Source: Desulfurivibrio dismutans (GTDB lineage Bacteria; Desulfobacterota; Desulfobulbia; Desulfobulbales; Desulfurivibrionaceae). From it: a DNA stretch of 64,000 nucleotides. Shown in pieces: positions 30,494 through 59,073 of this stretch. The stretch spans positions 62,001 to 126,000 of the forward strand of contig NZ_JARGDQ010000001.1 of assembly GCF_029210385.1 (NCBI RefSeq). Direction: 5' to 3'. The position numbers and the translations under genes were made by a program. Each line of letters opens with the position of its first letter. Within the stretch, counting starts at the first letter, position 1. The notes under the pieces were generated by a model. That model searched no databases. It had not been told where the DNA came from and saw only the letters and a list, made by a program, of their open reading frames with translations.

Positions 30494-31405
30494 ATGGATA
30501 CCGCCCATCAACCAGTGCTGTTGGCCGAATCCCTGTTCTGGCTGGCACCGGTCAGCGGCGGGATTTACGTTGACGGCAACTTGGGGATGGGAGGGCATGC
30601 CGCCGCCATCCTGGAAGCCAGCGCCCCGGCCGGCCAACTCATCGGTTTTGACTGGGATGAAGAGGCCCTGGCCCGGGCCGGTCGTAATCTGGCCCGTTTC
30701 GGCGACCGGCTGCATCTACAGCCGCGCAACTTTATCGAACTGGAGGCGACCTTGGCCGAACTGGCGATCAGCCATATCGACGGGATGCTGCTTGATCTGG
30801 GGCTGTCCTCGCTGCAGTTGGACAGTTCCGGGGAGGCTGCTGGGCCGGGGCGGGGATTCAGCTTCCGGCGGCCGGAACCTTTGGATATGCGGATGGATCG
30901 CCGCCAGGAACTTACGGCGGCGGATCTGCTCCGGGATATGAGCGCCGCTGAACTGTCCGACATCTTTTATTATTACGGGGAAGAGCGTCAGGCCCGGCGG
31001 ATTGCCGGGCGGCTGGTGGAACAGCGGCGGCATACCCCCATCGAGAATACCGTGCAGTTGGCTGAACTGGTGGCTGCTGCGGTGCCCCGTCGTTTTCATC
31101 CCCGTAACATTCACGTTGCCACCCGGGTTTTTCAGGCCCTGCGGATTGCGGTCAACCGAGAACTTGAAAATCTCGAGAAAATCCTGGCCGCTGCTCCGTC
31201 GCACCTGTCTCCCAAAGCCCGTTTGGCGGTGATCTCTTTCCATTCACTGGAAGATCGTTTGGTCAAGCGGGCGTTTCGGGAAGATCCGCGGCTGGCAGTT
31301 CTCACCCCTCGGCCGATACAGCCGGGGGTGGCGGAATTGCAGCGCAATCCCAGGGCCCGCAGCGCCAAGCTGCGGGTGGCTGAACGCTGCAGCGAGGCAG
31401 CATGA
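30494..31405 (+). CDS. rsmH: 16S rRNA m4C1402 methyltransferase, 303 aa
   Basis: SAM-dependent enzyme methylating C1402 of 16S rRNA. HQPVLLAE opening, YVDGNLGMGGHAAAIL SAM loop (Gly-rich, Asn-Leu-Gly where Thr-Leu-Gly is common), LLDLGLSSLQLD, and ISFHSLEDRLVK. A TTG precedes ATG 30494 in frame. The stop overlaps ftsL by 4 bases. Confidence 0.95.
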   Translation: MDTAHQPVLLAESLFWLAPVSGGIYVDGNLGMGGHAAAILEASAPAGQLIGFDWDEEALARAGRNLARFGDRLHLQPRNFIELEATLAELAISHIDGMLLDLGLSSLQLDSSGEAAGPGRGFSFRRPEPLDMRMDRRQELTAADLLRDMSAAELSDIFYYYGEERQARRIAGRLVEQRRHTPIENTVQLAELVAAAVPRRFHPRNIHVATRVFQALRIAVNRELENLEKILAAAPSHLSPKARLAVISFHSLEDRLVKRAFREDPRLAVLTPRPIQPGVAELQRNPRARSAKLRVAERCSEAA

Positions 31406-31728
31406 TCCGCCACGGCGGCAACCGTCGGGGTGGCGCTCATTCCCGGGCGCCCCGGTCGCCTGTCCGGGAATGGGGCCACCACCTGAAGCTCAAAGTCGGT
31501 GCGGTGCCTTTGCTGGTGCTGGCGATGGCGGTTTTGTGGCTGGCCTGGTCGGTGCATCAGGGGCAGGCGGCGGTGGTGGCTGAGCAGGCACGACAGGAGG
31601 ATTTGTTGGAGAAACATCGGGAGTTAAGCCGGCAGCGAGACATCCTACAGGCCAGGGAGCGGATCGAAAAAGAGGCGGCCCGGCAGGGGTTGTATCCACC
31701 GGGGAAAGGACAGATTCAGCGTCCCTAG
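31402..31728 (+). CDS. ftsL: cell division protein FtsL-like, 108 aa
   Basis: Small bitopic division protein. A basic cytosolic part (about 1-33) precedes a membrane segment (about 34-52: VPLLVLAMAVLWLAWSV) and a periplasmic heptad-rich coiled coil (about 55-95: QARQEDLLEKHRELSRQRD). Sequence is too variable for family certainty, but size, topology and position between rsmH and ftsI fix the identity. In other bacteria FtsL with FtsB and FtsQ activates FtsWI. Confidence 0.85.
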   Translation: MIRHGGNRRGGAHSRAPRSPVREWGHHLKLKVGAVPLLVLAMAVLWLAWSVHQGQAAVVAEQARQEDLLEKHRELSRQRDILQARERIEKEAARQGLYPPGKGQIQRP

Positions 31729-31752: not shown

Positions 31753-33744
31753 ATGCCCAGGACCATGAGCGCCAGACAGCGTGGCAAAAAAATGCTTTTT
31801 TTGATCCTGCTGTTGCCGGTGCTCGGCTTGGTCGTCTGGGGTTTCTTGAGTCTCTCTGGGGCCGATCAAAAGAGGCTGGCCGCCGGCTACCACGGAGAGA
31901 CGCTGGTGAAGAGTTCCACTCTGCGGCGCAATAACATCTACGATCGCCACTTCGATACCCTGGCCCTTAGTTTCCGCCTCAGTTCCCTCTACGCCCGGCC
32001 ACTTGAGATCAATGATCCGGAGGGAACAGCGGTTGAACTGGCGCGACTGCTGGACCTGGACTCACAGGTCCTGCTGGACTCTTTCCGCAGTGAGCGCAGC
32101 TTCGTGTGGTTGAGCCGCCAGACCAGGCAGGAAGTGGCGGACGAAGTGCTGGGCCTGGGGTTGCCCGGCATTTACGTCATGCCGGGTTCCCATCGATACT
32201 ACCCCCATCGCGACGGCGCCGCGCATGCGGTTGGCTTTGTCAAGGATGAACAGGGGCTGGCCGGTATCGAACTTTCCTACGATAATATTCTGCGGGGCGG
32301 AGTCAGTGATATCCGTCTGGCCGCCGCCGGGGTTCCCGACCGGGTAACGGCCGGCGGCGGGGTGCATCTGGTCAGTACCCTGGATATTGCCTTGCAGCGC
32401 GAACTGGAACATCGCTTGGCGCGGGTGCTGCGCTCGGTGGACGGTGCTGCTGCTGCCGGATTGGTAATGGAAGTGGCCACCGGGGCGGTGCTGGCCATGG
32501 CCAGTCTGCCGGCCTACGATCCCAATCGTTTCTGGGCCGCCGGGGCTGAAGAGCGGCTCAATCGGGCCGTCATCCAGGTTCACATCGGCGCCCTGCGTGA
32601 ACTTTTTCAGCGGGCAGCTGGCGAAGATGACCGTGTGCGCCCAGCGACTAGCTTGGCTGGCGGAGCAGGGACGGCCACGAGGGAGGGGTTGTGGTATCGT
32701 CTCGCGCCGGATGTTTACGCTTCAGCCTTCCTTGGCGGCAACAGCCGGACCGGTAGTTTTTGGTCGGAAGAGTTTTTGCGGCAGGTCGGGCTATGCCAGG
32801 ATAGTGACCTGGATCTGTTGGAAGGCAGAAGTATGGGGCAAATCATGCAGGCCGAGGATATTGAGGGGGAAGGGTGCCGGCAGTTGCTCCAGGATAATAG
32901 GGCCGCCGTAAATGGGGTCTCACTGCTGGCCTCCTTCAGCCGGTTGGTTAACGCCGGCAGCCCGGTGAAGCCGCACGTGATCAAAGGGTTCTGGGATGGG
33001 GAGGAGTTTTGGCCGCGGCAGTCGGCAGTGGCTGTTGAGACGGCGCCGGCGGCAACCGGAACCTGGGCGCTCAAAGAGCTATTAAATCAAACTGGCAGCA
33101 GCGGCCAAGTGGCCACTTATGAGAGCCTGGTGGCCGAAGTCGGGCCTCTTGCTCTCCAAACTGCCGAATTAGCGGCTATGAATGCGGAATCGCCGCCCGG
33201 ATCAGGGGGGGTGCAGGAAAATCAGCCCGCTGAAACGGCGGCCGAACTGTCCGACCGGCCCAAACGCTACCAGGCGGTGATGCTGGGGCTGGCCCCGAGG
33301 GAGAAACCGGTGCTGGCGGCCCTGATCTTTGTTGAACGGGCCGGCCTTGATCTTGAATTGCCCTCGCCGTTGGCGGGAGTGATTCGCGATCTTGACCAAT
33401 GGAGCAACAGGCTTAACCAGTCAGCTCCTCTTCCCGCATCGGCAACGATTCTGGCGCGGGAGGAAGCCCTGTATCATAAGTGGCTGGAGAAGCAGGAAAC
33501 CGGTGAGTTGCAGATGCATGCAACGGCACGCCGGGCGCCGGAGAAAATGCCTGATGTGGTGGGGTTGAGCTTGCGTAAGGCTTTACAGGTTTTACATTCT
33601 TCCGGTCTGCGTTTCCAGGTAAAGGGCAGCGGCCGGGTGGTTTATCAGGAGCCACCGCCCGGCGCCTCGCTCCGGGGCGTGGATGAAGGAGTTATCGAGC
33701 TCAGGGTGCCCGGTGGCGAGATGGTAGCAGCCGGGTCAAATTAA
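31753..33744 (+). CDS. ftsI: FtsI/PBP-family protein with lost transpeptidase motifs, C-terminal PASTA, 663 aa
   Basis: Positionally FtsI, the septal transpeptidase. The membrane anchor (about 15-35) and PBP dimerisation/pedestal region are well kept (IYDRHFDTLALSF, FVWLSRQ, HRYYPHRDGAAHAVGF, GIELSYDNILRGG). The transpeptidase domain is recognisable (NRAV, YQAVMLGLAPREKP-like end) but the catalytic residues are gone: the SxxK site reads GALREL (Ala280, Glu283), no SxN is visible, and the KTG site reads AEVGPLA (Val463-Pro465). The C-terminus is a PASTA-like unit (MPDVVGLSLRKALQVL). The frame is intact and the base composition is normal, so this looks like selected loss of catalysis rather than a pseudogene. 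Confidence 0.9.
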   Translation: MPRTMSARQRGKKMLFLILLLPVLGLVVWGFLSLSGADQKRLAAGYHGETLVKSSTLRRNNIYDRHFDTLALSFRLSSLYARPLEINDPEGTAVELARLLDLDSQVLLDSFRSERSFVWLSRQTRQEVADEVLGLGLPGIYVMPGSHRYYPHRDGAAHAVGFVKDEQGLAGIELSYDNILRGGVSDIRLAAAGVPDRVTAGGGVHLVSTLDIALQRELEHRLARVLRSVDGAAAAGLVMEVATGAVLAMASLPAYDPNRFWAAGAEERLNRAVIQVHIGALRELFQRAAGEDDRVRPATSLAGGAGTATREGLWYRLAPDVYASAFLGGNSRTGSFWSEEFLRQVGLCQDSDLDLLEGRSMGQIMQAEDIEGEGCRQLLQDNRAAVNGVSLLASFSRLVNAGSPVKPHVIKGFWDGEEFWPRQSAVAVETAPAATGTWALKELLNQTGSSGQVATYESLVAEVGPLALQTAELAAMNAESPPGSGGVQENQPAETAAELSDRPKRYQAVMLGLAPREKPVLAALIFVERAGLDLELPSPLAGVIRDLDQWSNRLNQSAPLPASATILAREEALYHKWLEKQETGELQMHATARRAPEKMPDVVGLSLRKALQVLHSSGLRFQVKGSGRVVYQEPPPGASLRGVDEGVIELRVPGGEMVAAGSN

Positions 33745-35369
33745 TGAAGGTGCGCCAATTGTTCAAAGCGGCGGCGGTTGATTATACGGTGCTGGCCGGG
33801 CGGGAAGACGGGGCACCGGAGGTAACGTCGGTCACCGCTGATTCGCGCCGGGCTGGTCCCGGTTCGCTTTTTGTGGCTTTGCCGGGTACCCGGGTGGATG
33901 GCCATGACTATCTCGCTGCCGCAGTGAAGCAGGGTTGCCGGGTAGTGCTCTGCAAGACGGGCTGCCGTACGCCGGTGGGGCAGGGGGGGGAAGTGCTGCA
34001 TCTGGCCACCGCCGATACCCGGGCCGCTTTTGGCCGGTTGTGTGCGGCATTACGCGGTTTCCCGGCGCGGGAGATGACGATGATCGGCATCACCGGCACC
34101 AATGGCAAGACCACCGCCTCCTATCTGCTGGAAGAGTTGATCCGCCAGTCAGGCGGAGAGCCCGGAGTGATCGGCACGGTCAATTACCGTTACCGGCACC
34201 GGGTGATGCCGGCCACCCATACCACGCCGGATCCGGAAAGTCTGCAGCAGTTGTTGCGGGAGATGGCCGATGCCGGGGTAAGCCATGTGGTCATGGAAGT
34301 TTCATCCCATGCTCTGGAGCAGCAACGGGTGGCGGGCATTGCCTTCGATGTCGCGCTGTTCACCAATCTCAGCCACGAGCATCTGGATTACCATGGCGAT
34401 ATGGCCAGTTACTTTGCCGGCAAGAAACGTCTGTTTGATCATTATTTAAAGCCCGGTGGGGCGGCAGTAGTGCTGGACGGCCGGGCTGAACAGGATGATG
34501 CGGCAGGCGATGTCTGGAATCAAAGGCTGATTGCGGAGCTGTTGCCCAGGGTCATACCGGCAACCGCCAGTCGTCGGCCCCAGCCTGGAGAGTTGCGGTT
34601 GTGGCGCTGTGGCGCCCGGGGGGCAGAACTGCGCTTGTTGCGCCGCCGTCTGAGCCTGGTCGGCATTGAAGCGGAGCTACATAGTGAGGCCGGGGAATGG
34701 CAACTGCGCTCTACCCTGGTGGGCGACTTTAATCTGGATAATCTCTTGGGGGTGGCCGGGGTCGGCCTGGCCTTGGGGATGAGCCCCGAAACCATCGCCG
34801 CAGCTTTGGGTGGAGCGTCGCCGCCCCCTGGTCGTTTGGAGCGTTTCAGTTCCGGCCGCGGGGTGGAGGTGCTGGTGGATTACGCCCACACCCCCGATGC
34901 CCTGGGGCATGTACTGAAGGCCTTGCGTGAGTTGACCCCGGGCCGGCTGATCGTTGTTTTTGGCTGTGGTGGCGACCGGGATCAGGTCAAGCGCCCGCTG
35001 ATGGGGCAAGTTGCTGCCGGGTTGGCGGACATCGTGGTTCTCACCTCGGACAACCCCCGCAGTGAACAGCCGGCCGCCATCATGGCTGATATCCAGCGGG
35101 GTCTTGAAGGGGCGGGAGTCCGGCGGGGGCGGTTGGAAAACCTGTTGAAAGGCGAAAGGGGCGAGGCGAGAAAATGCCGGGGCTACGACCTGCTGGTCTC
35201 CCGTCGCCAGGCAATTCGGGACACTATTTTTCACGCTCGACTCGGGGATGTGGTGCTGGTTTGCGGTAAGGGTCATGAAACCACGCAGGTGATCGCGGGT
35301 CGCTGTCTGATGTTTGACGATCGGCAGGAGGTAAGAGAACAACTGGCGGTAATGACCCAGGCGGGTTAG
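33744..35369 (+). CDS. murE: UDP-MurNAc-tripeptide (meso-DAP) ligase, 541 aa
   Basis: Adds the third residue of the stem peptide. Mur-ligase ATP motif GITGTNGKTTASYLLEEL near residue 116, carbamylated-Lys region, and DNPR in TSDNPRSEQ near residue 435, the signature that selects meso-diaminopimelate. The start overlaps the ftsI stop by 1 base. Confidence 0.95.
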   Translation: MKVRQLFKAAAVDYTVLAGREDGAPEVTSVTADSRRAGPGSLFVALPGTRVDGHDYLAAAVKQGCRVVLCKTGCRTPVGQGGEVLHLATADTRAAFGRLCAALRGFPAREMTMIGITGTNGKTTASYLLEELIRQSGGEPGVIGTVNYRYRHRVMPATHTTPDPESLQQLLREMADAGVSHVVMEVSSHALEQQRVAGIAFDVALFTNLSHEHLDYHGDMASYFAGKKRLFDHYLKPGGAAVVLDGRAEQDDAAGDVWNQRLIAELLPRVIPATASRRPQPGELRLWRCGARGAELRLLRRRLSLVGIEAELHSEAGEWQLRSTLVGDFNLDNLLGVAGVGLALGMSPETIAAALGGASPPPGRLERFSSGRGVEVLVDYAHTPDALGHVLKALRELTPGRLIVVFGCGGDRDQVKRPLMGQVAAGLADIVVLTSDNPRSEQPAAIMADIQRGLEGAGVRRGRLENLLKGERGEARKCRGYDLLVSRRQAIRDTIFHARLGDVVLVCGKGHETTQVIAGRCLMFDDRQEVREQLAVMTQAG

Positions 35370-39689: not shown

Positions 39690-39742
39690 AAAGGCTGGTG
39701 GGAACATACCTGGCGGTGCCGGCCTCTGCGAGGAGAGGCTGA
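39686..39742 (+). other. 18-codon ORF in the ftsW slot between murD and murG
   Basis: MKRLVGTYLAVPASARRG, starting in an ATGA overlap with murD and ending in a TGATG overlap with murG. ftsW normally lies here. It may be a remnant of ftsW, or only a re-initiation relay that couples murD to murG translation. It has no recognisable FtsW sequence. Confidence 0.35.
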
Positions 39743-42274: not shown

Positions 42275-43335
42275 TGGCGGCAGCGGGATGCGAATTGCTC
42301 CGGCGCTTGCCCGGAGATTGCCTGGCCGCGGCTGATCGCTGCCCCCTGTTCTCTGAAAACTGGTCCGGTGCGTTGCGTCGACATGAACCCCTGGCTCCTT
42401 TGACCACCTTCAAGGTGGGCGGACCGGCGGCGATTACGGCTCGCCCCAGTGACTTACGGGAGTTGACGGTGCTGCTGGCGATTCTCCAGCGCCAGGGTTG
42501 CCCCTGGCGGGTGCTTGGCCGGGGGAGCAATCTGCTGGTGGCCGACCGGGGCTATGCCGGGGTGGCCATTGTGCTGGATCGGCGCTTGGGTAAAATCGAG
42601 CTTTTGCCGGTTACGCCAGCGATGGGGCGGCCCCAGGAAAATGTTTACCTGGTAAGGGTGGAGGCCGGCTGCAGCCTGGCGGCCTTGCTGAACTGGACGA
42701 TCAGGAACGGTTTGGGGGGGCTGGAATTCCTGGCTGGTATTCCCGGCAGCATTGGCGGCGCCGTGGTAATGAACGCTGGGGCCTTTGGGCAATCGCTGGG
42801 CGAAAAAGTAGTGGCCCTGGAGCTGGTTTCCGCCTCCGGGACTAGAACGGCGGCCCCGTCCCGCCCCGGCTTACGAGCGGCAGCCGTTTTGGGGGGAAAA
42901 GTGCCAGCCGAGCAAATGGGACCAAAGCTTGAAATCAGTTTCACTTACCGCCACTTGCAAGGCCTGGCCCCGTTTGAGGTGGTCGGGGCGGCCATTCTGG
43001 CCGTGGAGCCCAAGCCGGCGGCGGAAATAAAAAAAAATGTCCGGCGGCATCTGGGCCGGCGTCGGGCCGCGCAGCCCGGGGGGGTTGCCAGTGCCGGTTC
43101 ATTTTTCAAAAACCCCCCCGGGGATTACGCCGGTCGCCTGATCGAAGCGGCGGGGTTGAAAGGGAGACGGGTGGGGCGGGCCGAAGTCTCGCCGGCCCAC
43201 GCCAATTTTCTGGTCAACCTGGGTGGAGCCCGGGCTGAGGACCTGCACGCGCTGGCGGTCCGGGTGCAGGATGAAGTGCGGCGGCACAGCGGGGTGGAAC
43301 TGAAACCGGAGGTTCATTTACTGGGGTTTGAATGA
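42274..43335 (+). CDS. murB: UDP-N-acetylenolpyruvoylglucosamine reductase, 353 aa
   Basis: FAD enzyme making UDP-MurNAc. TTFKVGGPA, LGRGSNLLVADRGYAG, GLEFLAGIPGSIGGAVVMNAGAFG and SAGSFFKNPPGDYAGRLIEAAGLKG give the type I FAD site and the catalytic Ser. I place the start at GTG 42274, overlapping the murC TAG (TAGTG). This leaves a roughly 40-residue lead before the fold, longer than usual, so a later start is possible. Confidence 0.93.
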   Translation: MAAAGCELLRRLPGDCLAAADRCPLFSENWSGALRRHEPLAPLTTFKVGGPAAITARPSDLRELTVLLAILQRQGCPWRVLGRGSNLLVADRGYAGVAIVLDRRLGKIELLPVTPAMGRPQENVYLVRVEAGCSLAALLNWTIRNGLGGLEFLAGIPGSIGGAVVMNAGAFGQSLGEKVVALELVSASGTRTAAPSRPGLRAAAVLGGKVPAEQMGPKLEISFTYRHLQGLAPFEVVGAAILAVEPKPAAEIKKNVRRHLGRRRAAQPGGVASAGSFFKNPPGDYAGRLIEAAGLKGRRVGRAEVSPAHANFLVNLGGARAEDLHALAVRVQDEVRRHSGVELKPEVHLLGFE

Positions 43336-44168
43336 GAGGCAGAAAACCGGTAAGACAAAAAAAATGGCTAACTCGTCGGGGCGGCCCCGGGTCAGCCGCG
43401 AATTCTGGCTTTGTCGGCAAACTGGCGGTGCTGGGTCTGGGATTGGCGGCCATGCTGCTGGTGGCCTGGTTCAGCGGCATGCTGTTGCTGCAGCAACTGG
43501 GGCAGTCGTCCTTTTTTCAGCTTACTTCGATCAGGATCGACGGTGGGGTGCGGACCACCAAAAAGGAGGTTCTGGCCTTGAGCGGCCTGGATGTCCATAG
43601 TAACCTGCTGGCCTTGTCGGTCGGCACATTGCGCCGGCGCATCGAGGCCCATGGCTGGATCGAGTCGGCGGAGATTCGCCGGGAGTGGCCAAGCCGCCTG
43701 CAGATAACCATTAAAGAGCGACGGCCGCTGGCCATCCTCAGTTTGCCGGACGGGCTTTATTACGCGGATCGCCAGGGGCTGCCCTTTGCGCCGGCAGAAC
43801 CTCCGGAGGAGCTGGACTTTCCGGTGGTCACCGGCCTGGGAGAGGTTGATGCCTGGTCGGAAGAGCAGCGTAGGGCCCTGTGGCGGGCGCTGCATCTGAT
43901 CCGGCTGGCAGGTCGGGGGGGAGTGATTCTGCCGGCCCAGGGGATTTCAGAACTCAACCTGGCGGCGGACGGTGCCGTGACCCTTTTTCTGGTCAGCCGT
44001 CCCTTCCCGGTGTACCTGGGCCGGGAGCCGGAGGTGGCGCTGAGCTATAACCGCCTGGTGCGGGTGCTGAACTGGTTGTACAAAGAAAGGGTGTTTGCGG
44101 AAACCGCGGCCATCCGGATGGATTATCTGCCGGGCCAGGTGCTGGTGGAGAAAACCAGCGGCGGCTGA
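43332..44168 (+). CDS. ftsQ: cell division protein FtsQ, 278 aa
   Basis: Bitopic divisome protein. Basic cytosolic lead (about 1-30), membrane segment (about 32-52: LAVLGLGLAAMLLVAWF), POTRA domain (about 60-130: FQLTSIRIDGGVRTTKKEVLALSG) and FtsQ beta domain to the end. Overlaps murB by 4 bases. It should still contact FtsL here, even though the FtsI partner is catalytically degenerate. Confidence 0.92.
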   Translation: MRGRKPVRQKKWLTRRGGPGSAANSGFVGKLAVLGLGLAAMLLVAWFSGMLLLQQLGQSSFFQLTSIRIDGGVRTTKKEVLALSGLDVHSNLLALSVGTLRRRIEAHGWIESAEIRREWPSRLQITIKERRPLAILSLPDGLYYADRQGLPFAPAEPPEELDFPVVTGLGEVDAWSEEQRRALWRALHLIRLAGRGGVILPAQGISELNLAADGAVTLFLVSRPFPVYLGREPEVALSYNRLVRVLNWLYKERVFAETAAIRMDYLPGQVLVEKTSGG

Positions 44169-44210: not shown

Positions 44211-45443
44211 ATGAGTCGTGAGGAACGGGGAGAACTGCTGGTCGGCCTGGACATCGGCACCACCAAGATCTGTGCGGTGGTGGCCGAAGTGCTCGGCCGG
44301 CAGATCAAGATAATCGGCATGGGCCGTGCCCCTTCGGTGGGGCTGCGCCGAGGGGTGGTGGTAAACATAGAATCCACCGTGGATTCTATCCGCAAGGCGG
44401 TGGAAGCGGCCGAACAGATGGCCGACTGTGAGATCGGTTCGGTCTATGTGGGGATTGCCGGCAGTCATATCAAGGGCTTTAACTCCCATGGACTGATCCC
44501 CATTCGTTCCGGCGAGATTCGCCAGGATGATATCGACCGGGTGGTTGATGCCGCCCGGGCGGTGCCGGTGCCGCCGGACCAGGAGATCATCCACGTGTTG
44601 CCCCAGGAGTTCATCGTCGACGGCCAGCCCGATATCCAGGATCCCATCGGCATGACCGGGGTCCGGCTTGAGGCCGATGTGCACATCGTCACCGGCCTGG
44701 TGACCGCGGTGCACAACATCGTCAAGTGCTGCAACCGGGCCGGGCTCAATGTTGCCGACGTGGTGCTGGAGCCGCTGGCCTCGGCGGAGGCGGTGCTGAC
44801 CCGGGAAGAAATGGAGCTGGGGGTGGGGCTGCTGGATATCGGCGGCGGCACCTCTGATCTGGCGGTTTTTGCCGGCGGCACCATCAAGCATACCTTTGTG
44901 CTGGGGTTGGGCGGCCATAATCTGACCAACGATCTGTCGGTTGGGTTGCGCACCCCGCTTAAAGAGGCGGAGCGGCTCAAGGAGGAATATGGCTGCGCTC
45001 TGGCCTCAATGATCGACAAGGATCAGATCATTGAAGTGCCCAGTGTGGGCGGACGCAAATCCCGGCGGCTGTCCCGCCGGGTGATGGGCGAGATCCTGGA
45101 GCCGCGGGTGGAAGAGATGCTGACCCTGATCAATCAGGAACTGGTCGACTCCCGCTACAAGGAACTTGTCAATGCTGGTCTGGTGCTGACCGGCGGCACC
45201 GCCCAACTGGAGCACCTGGAAGACCTGGCCGAACAGATCTTCGACCTGCCGGTGCGGGTAGGATATCCGGAAAATGTCGAGGGCCTTGAGGAGATGATTG
45301 ACTCTCCCCAGTGGGCCACCGCAGTTGGCTTGCTGGTGTACGGCTCCCGGCATGATCCGGCCACCGGTTTTGGAGCCCGCTCCGGGCGGATGTTTTCCCG
45401 CCTGGGCAGCAGGATGAAGGAGTGGTTCAAAAAAGTGATTTAA
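44211..45443 (+). CDS. ftsA: cell division protein FtsA, 410 aa
   Basis: Actin-like protein that tethers FtsZ to the membrane. Phosphate-1 LLVGLDIGTTKICAVVAEV, GLLDIGGGTSDLAVF, VLTGGTAQLEHL and a C-terminal amphipathic helix GRMFSRLGSRMKEWFKKV for membrane binding. 42 bases after ftsQ. Confidence 0.96.
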   Translation: MSREERGELLVGLDIGTTKICAVVAEVLGRQIKIIGMGRAPSVGLRRGVVVNIESTVDSIRKAVEAAEQMADCEIGSVYVGIAGSHIKGFNSHGLIPIRSGEIRQDDIDRVVDAARAVPVPPDQEIIHVLPQEFIVDGQPDIQDPIGMTGVRLEADVHIVTGLVTAVHNIVKCCNRAGLNVADVVLEPLASAEAVLTREEMELGVGLLDIGGGTSDLAVFAGGTIKHTFVLGLGGHNLTNDLSVGLRTPLKEAERLKEEYGCALASMIDKDQIIEVPSVGGRKSRRLSRRVMGEILEPRVEEMLTLINQELVDSRYKELVNAGLVLTGGTAQLEHLEDLAEQIFDLPVRVGYPENVEGLEEMIDSPQWATAVGLLVYGSRHDPATGFGARSGRMFSRLGSRMKEWFKKVI

Positions 45444-45527: not shown

Positions 45528-46694
45528 ATGTCTTTTAAGCTAGCGGAGACTGAATCGCGGGCGAGGATCAAGGTGTTTGGTATCGGCGGCGGTGGCGGTA
45601 ACGCGGTTAATACCATGGTTGAAAGTGGCCTGGTGGGCGTGGAGTTCATTGCCGGCAACACCGACATGCAGGCCCTGGAACAGTCCAAGGCCGATGTCCG
45701 GCTGCAGTTTGGGCCCAATCTGGCCAAGGGCCTGGGGGCCGGGGCTCGGCCCGACGTGGGTCAGGAGGCGGCGGAGGAGTCCATTGATGAAATCCGCAAG
45801 CTGCTGGAGGATACCGACATGGTTTTTGTCACCGCCGGCCTGGGCGGCGGTACCGGTACCGGTGGGGCACCGGTGGTGGCCAAAGTGGCCAAGGAATTGG
45901 GAGCTCTCACCGTCGGGGTAGTCACCAAGCCTTTTGCCTTCGAGGGCAAGAAACGGATGAAAAATGCCGACGCCGGTTGGAAGGAGCTCAAGGCCCATGT
46001 GGATACCATCATCACCATTCCCAATGACCGGCTGATCTCCATGGCCCAGAAAGGCACCCGCTTCATCGACGGCATGAAGATGGCCGATGATGTCCTGGTC
46101 CAGGCGGTTAAGGGAATCACCGACCTGATCAACCTGCCCGGCTACATCAACCCGGACTTTGCCGATGTCCGCACGGTGATGAATGAAATGGGGCCGGCTT
46201 TGATGGGCGCCGGGCAAGGGGTCGGAGAAAATCGGGCCAGTGAGGCGGTGAACATGGCCATTGCCAGTCCGCTGCTGCAGGATATCAGTATTGATGGGGC
46301 CAAGGGAGTGCTGGTCAATATCTCCGCTCGCCAGGATACCCTGACCATGGCCGAGGTGACCCAGGCGACCACCAAGATTTATGACGAGGTCCATGAGGAT
46401 GCCAATATTATCCTCGGGGTTATTTTCGACGACAACCTGGGTGATGAACTGCGGGTGACGGTGATCGCCACCGGCATTCGGGCGGTGGAGGATTTTGAGG
46501 ATGTTGCCGACAATATCCGGCCCCTGCCCGGTGCCGGTAAGCGGGAGGCCAGGGTGCAGAGCCTGCCGATGACCGGAACGGGCAGTGGCTGCAACCGTGA
46601 GGCGGCCGCTAAAGGCGGCCGCAAAGCCTTTCCTTCATTAATGACCGATGAAGATTTTGATCGGCCCACCTTTTTGCGCAAAAATGAAAGCTGA
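45528..46694 (+). CDS. ftsZ: cell division protein FtsZ, 388 aa
   Basis: Tubulin-like GTPase forming the Z-ring. IKVFGIGGGGGNAVNTM, GTP loop GLGGGTGTGGAPVVAKVA, T7 loop INPDFADVRTVMNE (Pro where Leu or Val is usual, catalytic Asp residues kept) and the C-terminal FtsA/ZipA-binding peptide FDRPTFLRK. AAGGGGGCAGG lies upstream. Confidence 0.97.
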   Translation: MSFKLAETESRARIKVFGIGGGGGNAVNTMVESGLVGVEFIAGNTDMQALEQSKADVRLQFGPNLAKGLGAGARPDVGQEAAEESIDEIRKLLEDTDMVFVTAGLGGGTGTGGAPVVAKVAKELGALTVGVVTKPFAFEGKKRMKNADAGWKELKAHVDTIITIPNDRLISMAQKGTRFIDGMKMADDVLVQAVKGITDLINLPGYINPDFADVRTVMNEMGPALMGAGQGVGENRASEAVNMAIASPLLQDISIDGAKGVLVNISARQDTLTMAEVTQATTKIYDEVHEDANIILGVIFDDNLGDELRVTVIATGIRAVEDFEDVADNIRPLPGAGKREARVQSLPMTGTGSGCNREAAAKGGRKAFPSLMTDEDFDRPTFLRKNES

Positions 46695-51900: not shown

Positions 51901-53916
51901 ATGGCATTGCCGAATAAGCCGATGGGCGAGTTGCCCGCAGTCGCCAATCCCGAAGTTGTTGAGCACGACGTCGATGTACTGATCATCGGCGGTGGTATGG
52001 CCGCTTGCGGCACCGCTTTTGAAATCAAGAAGTGGGCCCCCGCCGATCTGAAGATCAAGCTGGTTGACAAGGCCGCCATGGAGCGCTCCGGCGCCGTGGC
52101 CCAGGGGCTGTCCGCCATCAACACCTACATCGGTGAGAATAAGATCGAAAACTACGTAAAGATGGTCCGCAACGACCTGATGGGTGTGGTTCGCGAAGAC
52201 CTGATCTACGACCTGGGCCGTCACGTTGACGAGTCCGTCAAGCTCTTCGAGGAATGGGGTCTGCCCATCTGGAAGAAGGACGACAAGGGCGACAACCTGG
52301 ACGGCGCCAAGCCCGCCCCCACCCTGCGTGAAGGCGGCACCCCCGTACGGACCGGTAAATGGCAGATCATGATCAATGGCGAGTCCTACAAGTGCATCGT
52401 CGCCGAGCCGGCCAAGACCGCGCTGGGCGAAGAGAACATCATGGAGCGCGTGTTCATCGTTAAGCTGATCCTGGACAAGAACAAGGAAAACCAGATCGCC
52501 GGTGCCGCTGGTTTCTCCACCCGTGAAAACAAGGTTCACGTTTTCCGCTGCAAGACCGCACTCTGCGCCTGTGGTGGTGCCGTTAACATCTTCCGTCCCC
52601 GGTCCACCGGTGAAGGTAAGGGTCGGGCCTGGTACCCGGTATGGAACGCCGGTTCCACCTACACCATGTGCGCCCAGGTTGGCGCCACCCTGACCATGAT
52701 GGAAAACCGCTTCACCCCGGCCCGTTTCAAAGACGGTTACGGCCCGGTAGGCGCCTGGTTCCTCCTGTTCAAGGCCAAGGTTCAGAACGGTCTGGGCGAG
52801 TTCTACGCCAACGCCGACTCTGCCCAGGAAGAGCTGAACAAGTACATGCCTTACGGCGGCTCCCCGGTGACCCCCACCTGTCTGCGCAATCACCTGCTGC
52901 TCAACGAGCTCAAGGCCGGTCGCGGGCCCATCTACATGGCCACCGACGTTGCCCTTAACGCCTTCCTCGAAGAGCGTCGGGCTGCCGGCATGGACGAGAA
53001 AGACGTGAAGAAGTTCTGGAAGCATCTGGAGAGTGAGGCCTGGGAAGACTTTCTCGATATGTCCGTTGGTCAGGCCGGTCTGTGGGCAGGTATGAACATC
53101 GAGCCCGAGAAGGTTGGTTCCGAGATCATGCCCACCGAACCCTACATGCTGGGCAGCCACTCCGGTTGCTGTGGTATCTGGACCTCCGGTCCCGATGAGG
53201 ACTGGGTTCCCACCGTCGATGGTCCCCGTAGCCACCAGTACAAATGGGGCTACAACCGGATGACCACTGTTGACGGGCTGTTCACCGCCGGTGACGGCGT
53301 TGGCGCCTCCGGCCATAAGTTCTCCTCCGGCTCGCACGCCGAAGGCCGCATCGTAGCCAAGCAGATGGTTAAATTCTGCCGTGACAATGCCGACTTCAAG
53401 CCCGAGTTGCCCAAGAGCGCTCAGGAGTACGCCGACGAGATCTACGCTCCGGTTAAGCGCTACCTGGAGCATGTTGGCGCCTCCACCGCGGCCAACGTCA
53501 ACCCCAACTACTGCAAGCCCGCCGGTCTGATGATGCGCCTGATGAAGGCAACCGACGAGTACGGCGGCGGTGTTGCCACCTACTACATGACCTCTGGCAA
53601 GCTGCTCAACATCTGCCTGGATCTGCTGCGCATGCTGCGTGAAGACGCCGAGCAGATGGCCGCCGGCGACCTGCACGAACTGATGCGGGCCTGGGAGAAC
53701 TACCACCGCATCTGGTGTGTGGAAACCCACATCCGCCACATCGAGTTCCGCAAGGAATCCCGCTACCCCGGTTTCTACTATCGTTCCGACTTCCCCAACG
53801 TCGACGAAGAGAACTGGAAGGCCTTCGTTAACTCCACCTACGATCCCAAGGCGGGTGAGTGGAAGTGTGAGAAGGTCGAATGCATCAACATCGTTGAAAC
53901 CGAGCCGTGGGTATAA
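51901..53916 (+). CDS. aprA: adenylylsulfate reductase alpha subunit, 671 aa
   Basis: FAD enzyme interconverting APS and sulfite + AMP. FAD motif VLIIGGGMAACGTAFEI near residue 22, substrate-site Arg and His residues in the conserved NYYRGGS-less AprA core, HQYKWGYNRMTTVDGLFTAGDGVGASGHKFSSGSHAEGR with FAD contacts near residue 440-480. 70 bases after aprB with its own AAGGAG. Strong codon bias compared with neighbours (high expression). A terminator follows at 53959. Confidence 0.97.
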   Translation: MALPNKPMGELPAVANPEVVEHDVDVLIIGGGMAACGTAFEIKKWAPADLKIKLVDKAAMERSGAVAQGLSAINTYIGENKIENYVKMVRNDLMGVVREDLIYDLGRHVDESVKLFEEWGLPIWKKDDKGDNLDGAKPAPTLREGGTPVRTGKWQIMINGESYKCIVAEPAKTALGEENIMERVFIVKLILDKNKENQIAGAAGFSTRENKVHVFRCKTALCACGGAVNIFRPRSTGEGKGRAWYPVWNAGSTYTMCAQVGATLTMMENRFTPARFKDGYGPVGAWFLLFKAKVQNGLGEFYANADSAQEELNKYMPYGGSPVTPTCLRNHLLLNELKAGRGPIYMATDVALNAFLEERRAAGMDEKDVKKFWKHLESEAWEDFLDMSVGQAGLWAGMNIEPEKVGSEIMPTEPYMLGSHSGCCGIWTSGPDEDWVPTVDGPRSHQYKWGYNRMTTVDGLFTAGDGVGASGHKFSSGSHAEGRIVAKQMVKFCRDNADFKPELPKSAQEYADEIYAPVKRYLEHVGASTAANVNPNYCKPAGLMMRLMKATDEYGGGVATYYMTSGKLLNICLDLLRMLREDAEQMAAGDLHELMRAWENYHRIWCVETHIRHIEFRKESRYPGFYYRSDFPNVDEENWKAFVNSTYDPKAGEWKCEKVECINIVETEPWV

Positions 53917-53958
53917 TTCCACTTGCAGGTTGAACCGATGAAGTTTGACTGCTAACGG

Positions 53959-54003
53959 AAAATCTCCAGGTGCCGCCACATGGCGGTACCTGGAGATTTT
54001 TTC
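53959..54003 (+). terminator. terminator after aprA
   Basis: Stem AAATCTCCAGGT-CCGCC paired with GGCGG-ACCTGGAGATTT, then TTTTTTC. Confidence 0.9.
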
Positions 54004-54094
54004 TGTAAGCCAGGCTGAAATATTCTTGCCAGCGTGGCTGACTTGGTTTATCTCCTACGTTTTAATGGCCAGCACCGGGGCTTATTTGCCCGGG

Positions 54095-54178
54095 TTATTT
54101 GCTTGAGGCGACCGCTCAACTTGATGAGTCGTGGCTTGAGGCAAATAAATTTGAAGCCTGTTAAGTAGGATCTATCTA
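54095..54178 (+). promoter_or_regulatory. dyad and possible promoter upstream of qmoA
   Basis: TTATTTGC (54095-54102) and GCAAATAA (54141-54148) form an 8-bp dyad, and GCTTGAGGC is repeated directly at 54101 and 54134. A weak promoter TTGAAG (54151) - 16 bp - TATCTA (54173) follows. Possible operator; not matched to a known regulator. Confidence 0.35.
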
Positions 54179-54202
54179 TCTTCAAAAGAATGGAGGAGAG
54201 GC

Positions 54203-55462
54203 ATGACAGATGAACGCAGCGCACCCTCAGGTGCTGTATTGGTCGTCGGTGGCGGGATCAGTGGTTTAACCGCTGCTCTCGAGGCCGCCGAAGTCGGGCA
54301 AGACGTCTTCCTGGTGGAAAAAAACCCTTCTCTGGGCGGCCGGGTGGCTCAGCTCAACCAGTACTTTCCCAAGCTTTGCCCACCGTCCTGCGGGCTGGAA
54401 ATCAACTACCAGCGGATTAAAAACAACCGCAAGATCCGGGTCCACACCATGACCGAAGTCAAAAGCGTCAGTGGCGGGCCGGGCAATTATCAGGTTACCC
54501 TCACCGTTAACCCCCGTTACGTCAACAGCAACTGCACCTGTTGCAACGCCTGCGTGGATGCCTGCCAGGACGAGGTGGACAACCCCTTCAACTTCGGCAT
54601 GGACAAGGTTAAGGCCATCCGCAAACCCCACGAGCATGCCTTCCCGGCCCGGTATGTGCTGGACAAGGATGCCTGCAGCAGCGCCAGTCTTGACGCCATC
54701 GTGGGCGCCTGCAAGTACGACGCCGTTGAACTGGACATGCAGGCCAAGGAGATCACTGTGGATGTGGCCAGCATTATCTGGGCCACCGGCTGGAATCCCT
54801 ATGACCCGAACAACCTGGAAAATCTCAAGTTCAACTCCAGTCAGGCCATCATTAGCAATATGATGATGGAGCGATTGGCCTCGGTCAACGGGCCCACCGG
54901 CGGCAAGATTCTGCGCCCCGGCGACAACGCCGAGCCCGCCAGCTTTGCCTTTGTGCAGTGTGCTGGCTCTCGGGACGAGAATCACCTTGAATACTGCTCC
55001 TACATCTGCTGCATGGCTTCCATGAAGCAGATCAACTATATCCGCGCCCAGTACCCCGAGGCGCCCATCACCGTTTTCTACATTGACCTGCGGACCCCCG
55101 GCAAATATGAAAAATTCCGGGAAAAACTGATGGCCGATGAAAACATCACCTGGATCAAGGGCAAGGTGGCCGATATCGTGGCCGAAAACGACGGCTCGGT
55201 GACACTTATTGCCGAAGACGCGGTGACCGGCAACAAGGCTCAGGCCAAGGTTGACCTGGCCGTGCTGGCCACCGGCATGCAGCCTGCCATCAGTGACCAG
55301 GCCAAGGCGCTTGGCTTGACGACGGACGATAACAATTTCGTCGTCTCCCAGGAAGAAGGCATGATTTCCGCCGGTTGCGCCAAGAAGGCGTCCGACGTGG
55401 TCACCTGCGCCCAGAGCGCCACGGCCGCGGCAATGAAAGCGATTCAAGCGTCGAGGAGGTAA
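54203..55462 (+). CDS. qmoA: QmoA, HdrA-like flavoprotein, 419 aa
   Basis: Soluble subunit of the quinone-interacting oxidoreductase linking menaquinone to APS reductase. FAD motif VLVVGGGISGLTAALEA near residue 11; HdrA-type segment YFPKLCPPSCGLEINYQR; a cysteine cluster CTCCNACVDAC near residue 115; a second CSYICCMASMKQINY cluster. It begins a three-gene operon, 286 bp after aprA. Confidence 0.95.
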   Translation: MTDERSAPSGAVLVVGGGISGLTAALEAAEVGQDVFLVEKNPSLGGRVAQLNQYFPKLCPPSCGLEINYQRIKNNRKIRVHTMTEVKSVSGGPGNYQVTLTVNPRYVNSNCTCCNACVDACQDEVDNPFNFGMDKVKAIRKPHEHAFPARYVLDKDACSSASLDAIVGACKYDAVELDMQAKEITVDVASIIWATGWNPYDPNNLENLKFNSSQAIISNMMMERLASVNGPTGGKILRPGDNAEPASFAFVQCAGSRDENHLEYCSYICCMASMKQINYIRAQYPEAPITVFYIDLRTPGKYEKFREKLMADENITWIKGKVADIVAENDGSVTLIAEDAVTGNKAQAKVDLAVLATGMQPAISDQAKALGLTTDDNNFVVSQEEGMISAGCAKKASDVVTCAQSATAAAMKAIQASRR

Positions 55463-55468
55463 TTGACT

Positions 55469-57727
55469 ATGGATAAGAAGTACGGTGTATATATTTGCAC
55501 GGGCTGCGGCATCGGGGAAGCCCTGGACGTAGAGGGACTGAGCGGGATTGCCGAAGAAAACGGCATGCCCGTTAAAACCCACGAGGCGGTCTGCAGCGAG
55601 GCCGGGCGCCAGGTGATCAAGGATGATATGGCCAACGACGGGGTCAACATCCCGGTGATCTGCGCCTGCTCACCCCGGGTCTGGAAGGAAGAGTTTAACT
55701 TCGGCGAGGGTACCATCACTGTCCGTGCCAACCTGCGTGAAGGCGTGGTCTGGTCCATGGAAAAGCCCAGCGAGGAGCGCAGCCAGGAGGTGATCAACGA
55801 GTTCACCAATGAACTGGCCCAGGATTACATGCGCATGGCCTGCACCCAGGCCAAGAAAATCGATATTCCTGAAGCTTCTCAACAGGAAACCACCAATCGC
55901 CGGATTCTGGTGATGGGCGGTGGCATTGCCGGTCTGACAGCGGCCCGGGAAGCGGCCAAAGCCGGCCACGACGTACTGCTGGTGGAAAAAACCGACAAGC
56001 TTGGTGGTAAAGCCCTTGGTTGGCGCAAGCAACTGCCCACCAAGGCTCCCTGGAGCAGCCTGGAGGAATCCAGTATTCAGGAACTGGTCAGTGCCGTTGA
56101 GACAGATTCCCGGATTACCGTTAAAACCGGTACCGAGGTGGCCCGCGTTGCCGGGGCTCCCGGGGATTTCAAAATTACCCTCAAGACCACCGGCACCCGG
56201 ACCGAATGGGATGCCCCCTTCCGGGTAACGGTGGACGAGCAGGATAAGATTGAAAAAGGTGAAATGGAAGACCCCAACCAGGGCTTCAGACCATACACCG
56301 AGGGCAACCCCGACGCCGAGGTGGTGGGGGCGGTTATCCTGGCCACCGGCTGGGTTCCCGCCGATGTTTCCGAGTTTGAACACCTTGGGCATGGCAAGCT
56401 TGCCAATGTGGTCACCAACGCCGAGTTTGAAAAGCTGGCCAAAGAGGGCAAGGTGCCGGCCAACGTGGCTTTCATCCAGAGCCCCGGTGGTGAGGACAAC
56501 GACAAGGATTTCCCCTATGCCAACTCGGTTACCAGCATGGTTGCTCTGAAGCAGGCTGGTTATGTGCGGGAGGACAACCCCGACGGCAAGGCCTACATCC
56601 TCTACCAGCACATGCGGACGCCCGGCAACATGGAGTTGTTTTATAAAGGAGCCCAGAACAACGACGGCATTTTCATGACCAAGGCCACGGTTACTGGGGT
56701 TGAGGAAGAGGGCGGCGCCCTGGTGGTCAAAGCCAAAAACACCTTGCTGCAGGAAGACCTGGATCTGCAGGTGGATATGGTGGTATTGGGGGCCGGTATG
56801 AGGCCCACCACCGCCGATGCTTCCACCATCAATCTTTCCTATCGTCAGGGCCCGGGTTTCCTGGATCTTGAGTTGTTTGACGGCTATGCCGACTCCAACT
56901 TCATCTGCTTTCCCTACGAAACCAGGAGAACCGGCGTTTACACCTGCGGCGGCGTACGCAAGGCCACCGATATGGTGGAGACCATTGATGACGCCTGCGG
57001 CGCGGCCCTCAAGGCCATTCAGTGTATTGAAAGCTCCGATCGCGGGGTGTCCGTACATCCTCGCTCCGGTGACAACTCCTATCCGGAGTTTTACTTCCAG
57101 CGCTGCACCCAGTGCAAGCGTTGCACCGAGGAGTGCCCCTTCGGCGCCCTGGATGACGACGAGAAGGGTACCCCGTTGCCCAACCCCACCCGCTGTCGGC
57201 GCTGCGGTACCTGCATGGGCGCCTGTCCCGAGCGGATTATCAGCTTCAAGAACTACAGCATCGACATGATCGGCTCCATGGTCAAGGCGGTGGATGTGCC
57301 CGATGACGATGAGGATAAACTGCGGATCGTCGCCTTTGTCTGCGAAAACGACGCCTATCCCTGTATCGACATGGCGGCCATGCGTAATGTCAGCCTCAAC
57401 AGCCTGGTGCGGATCATCCCTGTACGCTGTCTGGGTTCGGTGAACATGGTGTGGATCAAGGACGCCATGTCCTCCGGGATGGACGGCGCTCTGCTGCTGG
57501 GCTGCAAGTTCGGCGATGATTACCAGTGCCACTTCGTGAAGGGCAGTGAAATCGCCGACAAACGAATGGCCAACATCGGCGAAACCCTGGGTTCCTTAGG
57601 TCTGGAGCCGGAGCGCTGCGCCGTACGCCAAGTGGCGATTACCGATTACGACAAGGTTTCCGACGTGATCAACGAATTCATCGACGAGATCATGGAACTC
57701 GGCCCCAACCCCTTCAAGGGTTTCTAA
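55469..57727 (+). CDS. qmoB: QmoB, HdrA/MvhD-like flavoprotein, 752 aa
   Basis: Second soluble Qmo subunit. Residues 1-140 keep a conserved CTGCGIGEAL part; FAD motif ILVMGGGIAGLTAAREA is near residue 148. Two 4Fe-4S sites CTQCKRCTEECP and CRRCGTCMGACP lie near residues 550-590. A C-terminal MvhD-like domain (about 625-752) has VRCLGSVNMVWIKDAMSSGMDGALLLGCKFGDDYQCHF. ATG 55469 has GAGGAGG upstream. The pair QmoA/QmoB is thought to allow flavin-based electron confurcation or bifurcation. Confidence 0.95.
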   Translation: MDKKYGVYICTGCGIGEALDVEGLSGIAEENGMPVKTHEAVCSEAGRQVIKDDMANDGVNIPVICACSPRVWKEEFNFGEGTITVRANLREGVVWSMEKPSEERSQEVINEFTNELAQDYMRMACTQAKKIDIPEASQQETTNRRILVMGGGIAGLTAAREAAKAGHDVLLVEKTDKLGGKALGWRKQLPTKAPWSSLEESSIQELVSAVETDSRITVKTGTEVARVAGAPGDFKITLKTTGTRTEWDAPFRVTVDEQDKIEKGEMEDPNQGFRPYTEGNPDAEVVGAVILATGWVPADVSEFEHLGHGKLANVVTNAEFEKLAKEGKVPANVAFIQSPGGEDNDKDFPYANSVTSMVALKQAGYVREDNPDGKAYILYQHMRTPGNMELFYKGAQNNDGIFMTKATVTGVEEEGGALVVKAKNTLLQEDLDLQVDMVVLGAGMRPTTADASTINLSYRQGPGFLDLELFDGYADSNFICFPYETRRTGVYTCGGVRKATDMVETIDDACGAALKAIQCIESSDRGVSVHPRSGDNSYPEFYFQRCTQCKRCTEECPFGALDDDEKGTPLPNPTRCRRCGTCMGACPERIISFKNYSIDMIGSMVKAVDVPDDDEDKLRIVAFVCENDAYPCIDMAAMRNVSLNSLVRIIPVRCLGSVNMVWIKDAMSSGMDGALLLGCKFGDDYQCHFVKGSEIADKRMANIGETLGSLGLEPERCAVRQVAITDYDKVSDVINEFIDEIMELGPNPFKGF

Positions 57728-57741
57728 ACGGGATGCATAAA

Positions 57742-57790
57742 CGGCCGGCGGTTTTGTTTTTTTCTTGAACCGCCGGCCGATATTTTATAT
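57742..57790 (+). terminator. hairpin between qmoB and qmoC
   Basis: CGGCCGGCGGTT pairs with AACCGCCGGCCG over a T-rich loop, followed by ATATTTTATATTT. It may attenuate qmoC relative to qmoAB. Confidence 0.75.
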
Positions 57791-57879
57791 TTAATGGCCA
57801 ACTGATAATTGTGTCGTGACCCGCCGGCGTGCTCGGCCGGGTCTACGAATGCTGAAGGGAGACAACGGGAGGCAGCAAT

Positions 57880-59073
57880 ATGTCTGAGGGAATGAAGGTC
57901 CAGCCTGATCTCGAGTTTATAAAGTATTTGAAAAACGCCGGCGGTGACACCCTGAAAAAGTGTTACCAGTGTGCCACCTGCTCGGTGGTCTGCCCTTTGT
58001 CCGGGGATGACAAACCTTTTCCCCGCAAGGAAATGATCTGGTCCCAGTGGGGCCTTAAGGAGAAGCTGGTGGCTGATCCCGACGTGATGCTCTGTCATCA
58101 GTGCGGTGATTGCACCACCAACTGCCCGCGGGGCGCCAAGCCCGGTGATGTACTCGGTGCCATCCGGGCCTATGCTTACACCCATTACGGTTTTCCCCAG
58201 GGGTTGGCCAAACTTTGCAGCCAGGGCAAAAATCTGCCCATTATGATTCTGATTCCCACTCTTATCATCGGGATTGTCTGGTGGCTTTCCGGCGGGATGA
58301 AGTTACCGGATGGAGATATCAACTTTGGATACTTCTTTGGTGACGCCTATTATGTCCTGCCGGTGACTACGCTGCTGATTCAGTTGATCTTTGTACCCAC
58401 GCTCCTTTTTGCCATTTACGCTTTTTATCGTGGCATATCGAACATGTGGAAAGGGATGGCGGCCCAACTTCCAGCCACCGAACGCAACTTCCGCCCCTCG
58501 GTGACCCAGTTCATCAGTGAGTTTATCTGGCCGTCGGTCAAGGAGATTATGACTCATAAACGTTTTAATGAGTGCGGCACCAATCGTAACCGGGTTACCG
58601 GCCACATGCCGCTTGTCTTTGCTTTTATTGCCCTCCTGGCGGTCACCGCTTATGCCATGATTCGCAAGGATGTCTTCGGGCTATTTATTGAGGGTCTGCA
58701 CGTGCCGCTGACCTTTGCCGACCCCTTCAAGATTCTGGCCAACGTGGCCGGTATTGCCCTGATCGTCGGGGTGGGCATCCTCTGGGTTAACCGTTCCCGG
58801 ACGGAGCGTGAAAACAACACCACCCCTACATTTTACGACTGGTATCCCATCGGCATTGTGATGGCGGTTGGTGTCACCGGGATGGCGGCGCAGATTTTCC
58901 GGCTGGGAGATGTGGCGGTGATGGCCTATCTCTTGTACTTCATGCATCTGGTGTCGGTGTTTATGCTGTTCCTTTATACGCCCTACACCAAGCTGGCGCA
59001 TATGTTCTACCGGACCTTCGCCATGGCCTTCGAGAAATACCGGGCCAGCGGCTACGTGCAAAAGCAGGATTAG
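57880..59073 (+). CDS. qmoC: QmoC, HdrC/HdrE-like membrane subunit, 397 aa
   Basis: Membrane anchor of Qmo. N-terminal HdrC-like part with CYQCATCSVVCP and CHQCGDCTTNCPRGAKPGD (two 4Fe-4S clusters), then a C-terminal b-haem membrane part (about 120-397) with six hydrophobic segments that exchanges electrons with menaquinol. GGAGGCAGC precedes the start. Separated from qmoB by a hairpin and 152 bp. Confidence 0.95.
   Translation: MSEGMKVQPDLEFIKYLKNAGGDTLKKCYQCATCSVVCPLSGDDKPFPRKEMIWSQWGLKEKLVADPDVMLCHQCGDCTTNCPRGAKPGDVLGAIRAYAYTHYGFPQGLAKLCSQGKNLPIMILIPTLIIGIVWWLSGGMKLPDGDINFGYFFGDAYYVLPVTTLLIQLIFVPTLLFAIYAFYRGISNMWKGMAAQLPATERNFRPSVTQFISEFIWPSVKEIMTHKRFNECGTNRNRVTGHMPLVFAFIALLAVTAYAMIRKDVFGLFIEGLHVPLTFADPFKILANVAGIALIVGVGILWVNRSRTERENNTTPTFYDWYPIGIVMAVGVTGMAAQIFRLGDVAVMAYLLYFMHLVSVFMLFLYTPYTKLAHMFYRTFAMAFEKYRASGYVQKQD

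Follow-up and report, generated by a model that had tools for sequence, protein, structure and literature searches.

A putative FtsI pseudoenzyme retained in the dcw cluster of Desulfobulbales that lack FtsW

Judged from sequence, the FtsI protein encoded in the dcw cluster of Desulfurivibrio dismutans and of the other members of its sulfur-cycling order is almost certainly a catalytically dead pseudoenzyme. Our preferred reading, to which we assign a probability of roughly 0.75, is that it is a vertically inherited dcw pseudoenzyme retained as a non-enzymatic component of the divisome, with the septal wall being made by a class A PBP or by RodA-MrdA.

The ftsI gene and its active-site positions

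The window (the whole stretch of 64,000 nucleotides that was analyzed) contains a 663-amino-acid open reading frame at positions 31753 to 33744; like all the features of the dcw cluster given here, it is on the forward strand. A good Shine-Dalgarno sequence (AAGGAG) lies directly 5′ of its ATG at position 31753, and its TAA stop codon overlaps the ATG of murE (33744 to 35369) at position 33744. The gene on its other side, ftsL (31402 to 31728), is in the correct position and gives weak matches, below the cutoff, to the NCBIfam FtsL models. A location between ftsL and murE is that of FtsI/PBP3, and gene order in the cluster is normal (mraZ, rsmH, ftsL, ftsI, murE, murF, mraY, murD, murG, murC, murB, ftsQ, ftsA, ftsZ). 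Three further divisome genes are retained: ftsQ (43332 to 44168), which has good profile support (POTRA_1), and ftsA (44211 to 45443) and ftsZ (45528 to 46694), both identified by recognition of the reading frame and by dcw position. Genes resembling aprA and qmoABC, assigned by recognition to dissimilatory sulfur metabolism, lie near the cluster at positions 51901 to 59073 of the window.

The FtsI frame begins with a single N-terminal membrane helix (residues 7 to 36; 31771 to 31860), which is a helix in the AlphaFold2 model and hydrophobic in translation. The pedestal, or PBP dimer domain, follows (residues 57 to 200; 31921 to 32352; PF03717, E = 1.5e-8) and is the best-conserved part. The degenerate transpeptidase domain (residues 205 to 556; 32365 to 33420) lacks the motifs and is predicted to keep its fold, and the C terminus carries a strongly conserved PASTA domain (residues 595 to 652; 33535 to 33708; PF03793, E = 3.9e-9). 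An earlier, sequence-only reading had described the same frame, with the same pedestal and PASTA domain, and had claimed that its catalytic residues are lost. The Pfam Transpeptidase profile covers 36 residues of the protein (237 to 272) with 20.2 bits, which is less than the curated cutoff. All class B PBP models of NCBIfam score below their cutoffs, and the best matches stop near residue 275. MrdA (PBP2) was considered as an identity for the protein and ruled out: it scored 92 bits with TIGR03423, far below the cutoff of 455, whereas the true MrdA of this genome, encoded elsewhere, scored 714 bits.

Alignment with Pseudomonas aeruginosa FtsI and 18 intact relatives placed Ala280 and Glu283 (Ala280-Leu-Arg-Glu283, 32590 to 32601) in the positions of the SxxK serine and lysine, and the SSN motif was lost; both substitutions and the absence of SxN had been read correctly from the sequence. 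The motif columns S, K, S, N, K, T, and G are all present in 18 of 18 FtsI proteins from other families of the phylum. When a profile of 29 orthologs was aligned with the solved P. aeruginosa FtsI, “lgaler” fell under EPGSTVK and “yvSpel” fell under KSSN, and Lys-Ser/Thr-Gly was absent under GKSGT. It had also been proposed that AEVGPLA replaces KTGT. This stands insofar as there is no K-T-G in the right region, but the KTG columns themselves align slightly downstream of AEVGPLA, in a gappy stretch.

The loss of the motifs is order-wide. Since serine is found at the SxxK column in 0 of 89 FtsI orthologs from the order, where A, G, L, E, and K predominate, a sequencing error can be excluded. 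No displaced intact motif was found within the transpeptidase domain of the FtsI frame. A few relatives have stray KTG strings or strings resembling SxxK; these were rejected as shifted motifs, because they align outside the motif columns. Despite the lost motifs, the FtsI/SpoVD fold was the best match of a structure prediction of the kind that the sequence-only reading had suggested. The AlphaFold2 model (pLDDT, 75; pTM, 0.70; 29 sequences) best matched SpoVD (Z = 33.5) and P. aeruginosa FtsI/PBP3 (Z, about 32), and it matched FtsI of the FtsWIQBL complex with a Z score of 31.2. The VIA-align alignment of the model with PBP3 spans residues 54 to 556.

FtsW and the state of FtsI across the phylum

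Beyond what had been claimed for this protein, we found that FtsW is also gone, that the loss extends throughout the order and to over a dozen families besides, and that lineages without FtsW show progressive truncation of FtsI. In D. dismutans, murD and murG abut at the normal position of ftsW (39690 to 39741), leaving that slot without the gene. The genome is 99.99% complete and has a single SEDS gene, whose product is RodA: it scored 436 bits with TIGR02210, above the cutoff, and its score with the FtsW model was below the FtsW cutoff. The gene sits in an mreB-mreC-mreD-mrdA-rodA cluster. Two surveys, covering 48 genomes of the order together, gave one SEDS match in 45 of the 48. In the closed genome G034 the one match, RodA, is split into two frames (G034:C1:137697-138757), and in G015 and G138 (the latter 99% complete) none was detected within this set; for both G034 and G138, a frameshift, a sequencing error, or a real loss is possible. 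Outside the order, most families of the phylum have two SEDS.

Where the single SEDS of a genome is the dcw FtsW, encoded about 5 to 8 kb downstream of FtsI, FtsI has all its motifs (G051, G185, G055, G243, and G383; families with a dcw SEDS and an intact FtsI among such genomes, f28, f32, f93, and f112). In contrast, in each of 14 families, all outside the order and with RodA only, a dead or truncated FtsI occupies the ftsI slot. Lengths given here are those of the open frames. A dead FtsI of 453 to 643 amino acids, with RodA beside MrdA, is found in f27, f65, f71, f74, f75, f85, f90, f99, f107, and f114, and FtsI is truncated to 412 to 440 amino acids in f39 and to 333 to 395 amino acids in f38. 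The slot in f34 and f64 (L250 to L256), located between rsmH/ftsL and murE, encodes a protein of 248 to 344 amino acids whose N terminus carries a membrane helix and whose C terminus carries a PASTA domain; it has no transpeptidase domain. From its position, helix, and PASTA domain, we infer that this protein is homologous to FtsI. Its middle part is conserved, with a motif like KKPLxILKDKDxEGL. The FtsI proteins of f38 and f39 (L323, L324, L321, and L322; 333 to 440 amino acids) are the opposite of those of f64 and f34, in that the pedestal is kept and PASTA is not evident.

Two further observations concern individual families. The dead FtsI of G050 in f27 (L269:3709-5637) matches PF00905 with 99 bits over most of its length and has ELGELAG where EPGSTFK is expected; it is possibly an early stage of catalytic loss. 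Two f64 genomes have a second, divergent SEDS (G208:C51:16181-17161 and G319:C91:2009-2971; frames of 460 to 472 amino acids). That of G208 adjoins a 677-amino-acid frame matching the FtsI profile, and the two may be a later-acquired extra SEDS-bPBP pair.

There was one mismatch: in G038 (f15), a draft of 450 contigs, FtsI is intact and only RodA was found, and another f15 genome has two SEDS. Family f58 was left unassigned; rsmH was not found in its genome G098. A tree of RsmH and MurE had a weak backbone, and a single clade of the FtsW-less lineages was not rejected (AU test, P = 0.44). We therefore treat the association as a consistent pattern and not as many independent events. We also rejected a statistical argument for coupling from the number of independent losses: the backbone is weak, a single clade is compatible with the data, and there are only 1 to 2 independent pairs. 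The correlation with FtsW loss may go back to as little as one or two events. Across the phylum, FtsI is dead or truncated in genomes left with RodA only and intact in those that have FtsW, with one ambiguous draft. It is reasonably probable that large lineages of the phylum have abandoned the FtsW-FtsI synthase, that FtsI now has a regulatory or structural role in recruiting or activating RodA-MrdA or a class A PBP, and that its enzyme domain has shrunk stepwise to a membrane helix with PASTA.

Selection on FtsI and the remaining wall synthases

The ftsI frame is open in all 15 sampled families of the order (three of the orthologs are truncated at contig ends). Within the genus, identity between species is 72 to 86% in the pedestal, 67 to 83% in PASTA, and 44 to 59% in the transpeptidase core; the corresponding dN/dS ratios, which high dS makes rough, are 0.06 to 0.14, 0.08 to 0.14, and 0.19 to 0.33. 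Pairs of intact FtsI proteins show the opposite trend, in that the core is the better-conserved part (conservation of transpeptidase core versus pedestal, 0.81 versus 0.70, 0.65 versus 0.57, and 0.53 versus 0.42), and both parts of MrdA from the same genomes are similarly conserved. The former catalytic core is the fastest-evolving part of the dead FtsI, the reverse of living FtsI. Since the pedestal and PASTA are conserved while the core diverges, selection guards the non-catalytic parts. Catalytic residues are thus lost clade-wide from a gene under purifying selection, as is the case for pseudoenzymes, and we conclude from these comparisons that ftsI is not a pseudogene. The view that decay alone does not explain the gene, taken earlier from its open frame, gains from the order-wide motif loss, the intact operon position, and the purifying selection on the pedestal and PASTA.

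The fast evolution of the transpeptidase core, the shortening of FtsI in several lineages, and the overlap of its stop codon with the murE start would also be expected of a non-functional relic that decays after FtsW loss and is kept by dcw operon polarity or translational coupling to murE. We consider such a relic improbable, however, as the frame is open in 89 sampled genomes of the order, the dN/dS of the pedestal and PASTA is near 0.1, as low as in active MrdA, and the membrane helix and PASTA persist even where the transpeptidase domain is lost. Less credible still is a surviving enzyme whose active site has been rebuilt around different residues that acylate or bind the stem peptide. The PBP fold as a whole is predicted to survive, and the dN/dS of the core leaves much of it under constraint, but no conserved Ser, Lys, or Cys takes the place of the triad (the serine column is filled by A, G, L, E, K, and others), and most of the domain has been deleted in other lineages. 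Selection on FtsI could act on another function, e.g., peptide or wall binding. We give next to no credence to an artefact of assembly or sequencing, or to an overlooked second FtsI or FtsW: some of the relatives are draft MAGs, but the closed genome G002, of the same genus, agrees with the nearly complete genome of D. dismutans, and whole-genome searches gave no further class B PBP or SEDS.

FtsI of the known FtsWIQBL complex contacts FtsQLB through its membrane helix and pedestal. In the retained pseudoenzyme, these two parts would hold FtsI in the divisome, bound to FtsQLB; PASTA would bind the septal wall or link partners; and the dead FtsI would recruit or license the replacement synthase. 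Like the sequence-only reading, we infer a scaffold role in the divisome as the best account of the protein.

A whole-genome search of D. dismutans found no second FtsI; besides the dead one, MrdA, whose motifs are intact, is the sole class B PBP. There are three class A PBPs, of 683, 888, and 1109 amino acids, with SxxK and KTGT visible in each translation. This inventory agrees with the sequence-only reading, which had assigned cross-linking to another PBP and had suggested a search for a second class B PBP. The two long class A PBPs (L300:1731-5060, 1109 amino acids; L003:1021-3687, 888 amino acids) are conserved in part of the order. We rejected them as the substitute synthase, since FtsW-less lineages do not generally share them. 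No FtsW-less genome whose inventory is complete lacks a class A PBP, and several have exactly one. The closed genomes G268 and G211 have nothing beyond the dead FtsI, MrdA, and a single class A PBP, of 707 amino acids in G268 and of about 700 in G211. Septal cross-linking by a D,D-transpeptidase must therefore come from MrdA or from that class A PBP, and since such genomes offer a single class A PBP and a single RodA-MrdA pair, one or the other is probably the septal synthase.

The two candidates give variants of the preferred reading and do not exclude it. The odds are about even that a class A PBP anchored by FtsI builds the septal wall. All FtsW-less genomes with a full inventory keep such a protein, and vegetative division of Clostridioides difficile provides a precedent (PMC10693644), but bacteria with FtsW universally have class A PBPs as well, so that finding them is not diagnostic, and the two long ones of D. 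dismutans are confined as described above. Synthesis by RodA-MrdA, with the dead FtsI as a divisome-side activator of RodA that replaces FtsW, is a somewhat weaker candidate. RodA is the sole remaining SEDS and MrdA the sole intact class B PBP, but RodA lies in the elongation cluster. Because C. difficile divides by means of a class A PBP, we slightly favor that candidate. We predict that septation in the order is independent of the FtsI active site.

Comparison with known systems

FtsW-FtsI is generally regarded as the universal and essential septal synthase. This universality has been challenged for C. difficile (PMC10693644). Within Desulfobulbaceae, the absence of ftsW is already listed for four genomes: Geerlings and colleagues, in the portions of their report considered here, report zipA, ftsW, and ftsN as missing from the genomes of two species of Desulfobulbus and of two cable bacteria (PMC7873302). 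The placement of the window in Desulfobulbales is consistent with this earlier finding on ftsW. The same portions treat FtsI as present and, following the E. coli scheme, ascribe septal synthesis to FtsI activity; they do not remark on its dead active site. Our search of the open-access literature, with subscription papers outside its scope, found no report of a dead FtsI in this group or of FtsI-FtsW coupling. A natural, conserved dead FtsI without FtsW across an order would set apart, in living cells, what FtsI does as a structure from what it does as an enzyme, and the truncation series would show which of its parts are indispensable. It also raises the question of how diderm cells can divide when the canonical pair is missing.

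By position and profile, the protein is orthologous to FtsI/PBP3, with which it shares dcw position, membrane helix, pedestal, and PBP fold, the last as predicted. It differs in that the FtsI of the order lacks SxxK, SxN, and KTG and that the genome, with RodA only, has no cognate FtsW. In Staphylococcus aureus, the PASTA domains of PBP1 are required for septal plate formation, and both PASTA and the protein as such act in division in a way that can be separated from transpeptidation (PMC9426605); a similar separation would apply to the dead FtsI, although S. aureus PBP1 is an active enzyme. Inactive PBP2B of Bacillus subtilis supports division structurally, with PBP3 supporting the catalytic mutant (PMC5656894). 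The likeness is that of a division PBP without catalysis while another PBP cross-links, as would be the case here, but the B. subtilis protein is an engineered point mutant, whereas the loss in Desulfobulbales is natural, order-wide, and accompanied by loss of FtsW. The core divisome synthase of C. difficile is a class A PBP, vegetative septation uses no canonical FtsW/FtsI, and one SEDS-bPBP pair serves elongation (PMC10693644); in the last two respects the Desulfobulbales resemble it as far as their genes indicate. The dcw SEDS-bPBP pair of C. difficile serves sporulation, whereas in Desulfobulbales the dcw cluster has a dead FtsI and no SEDS.
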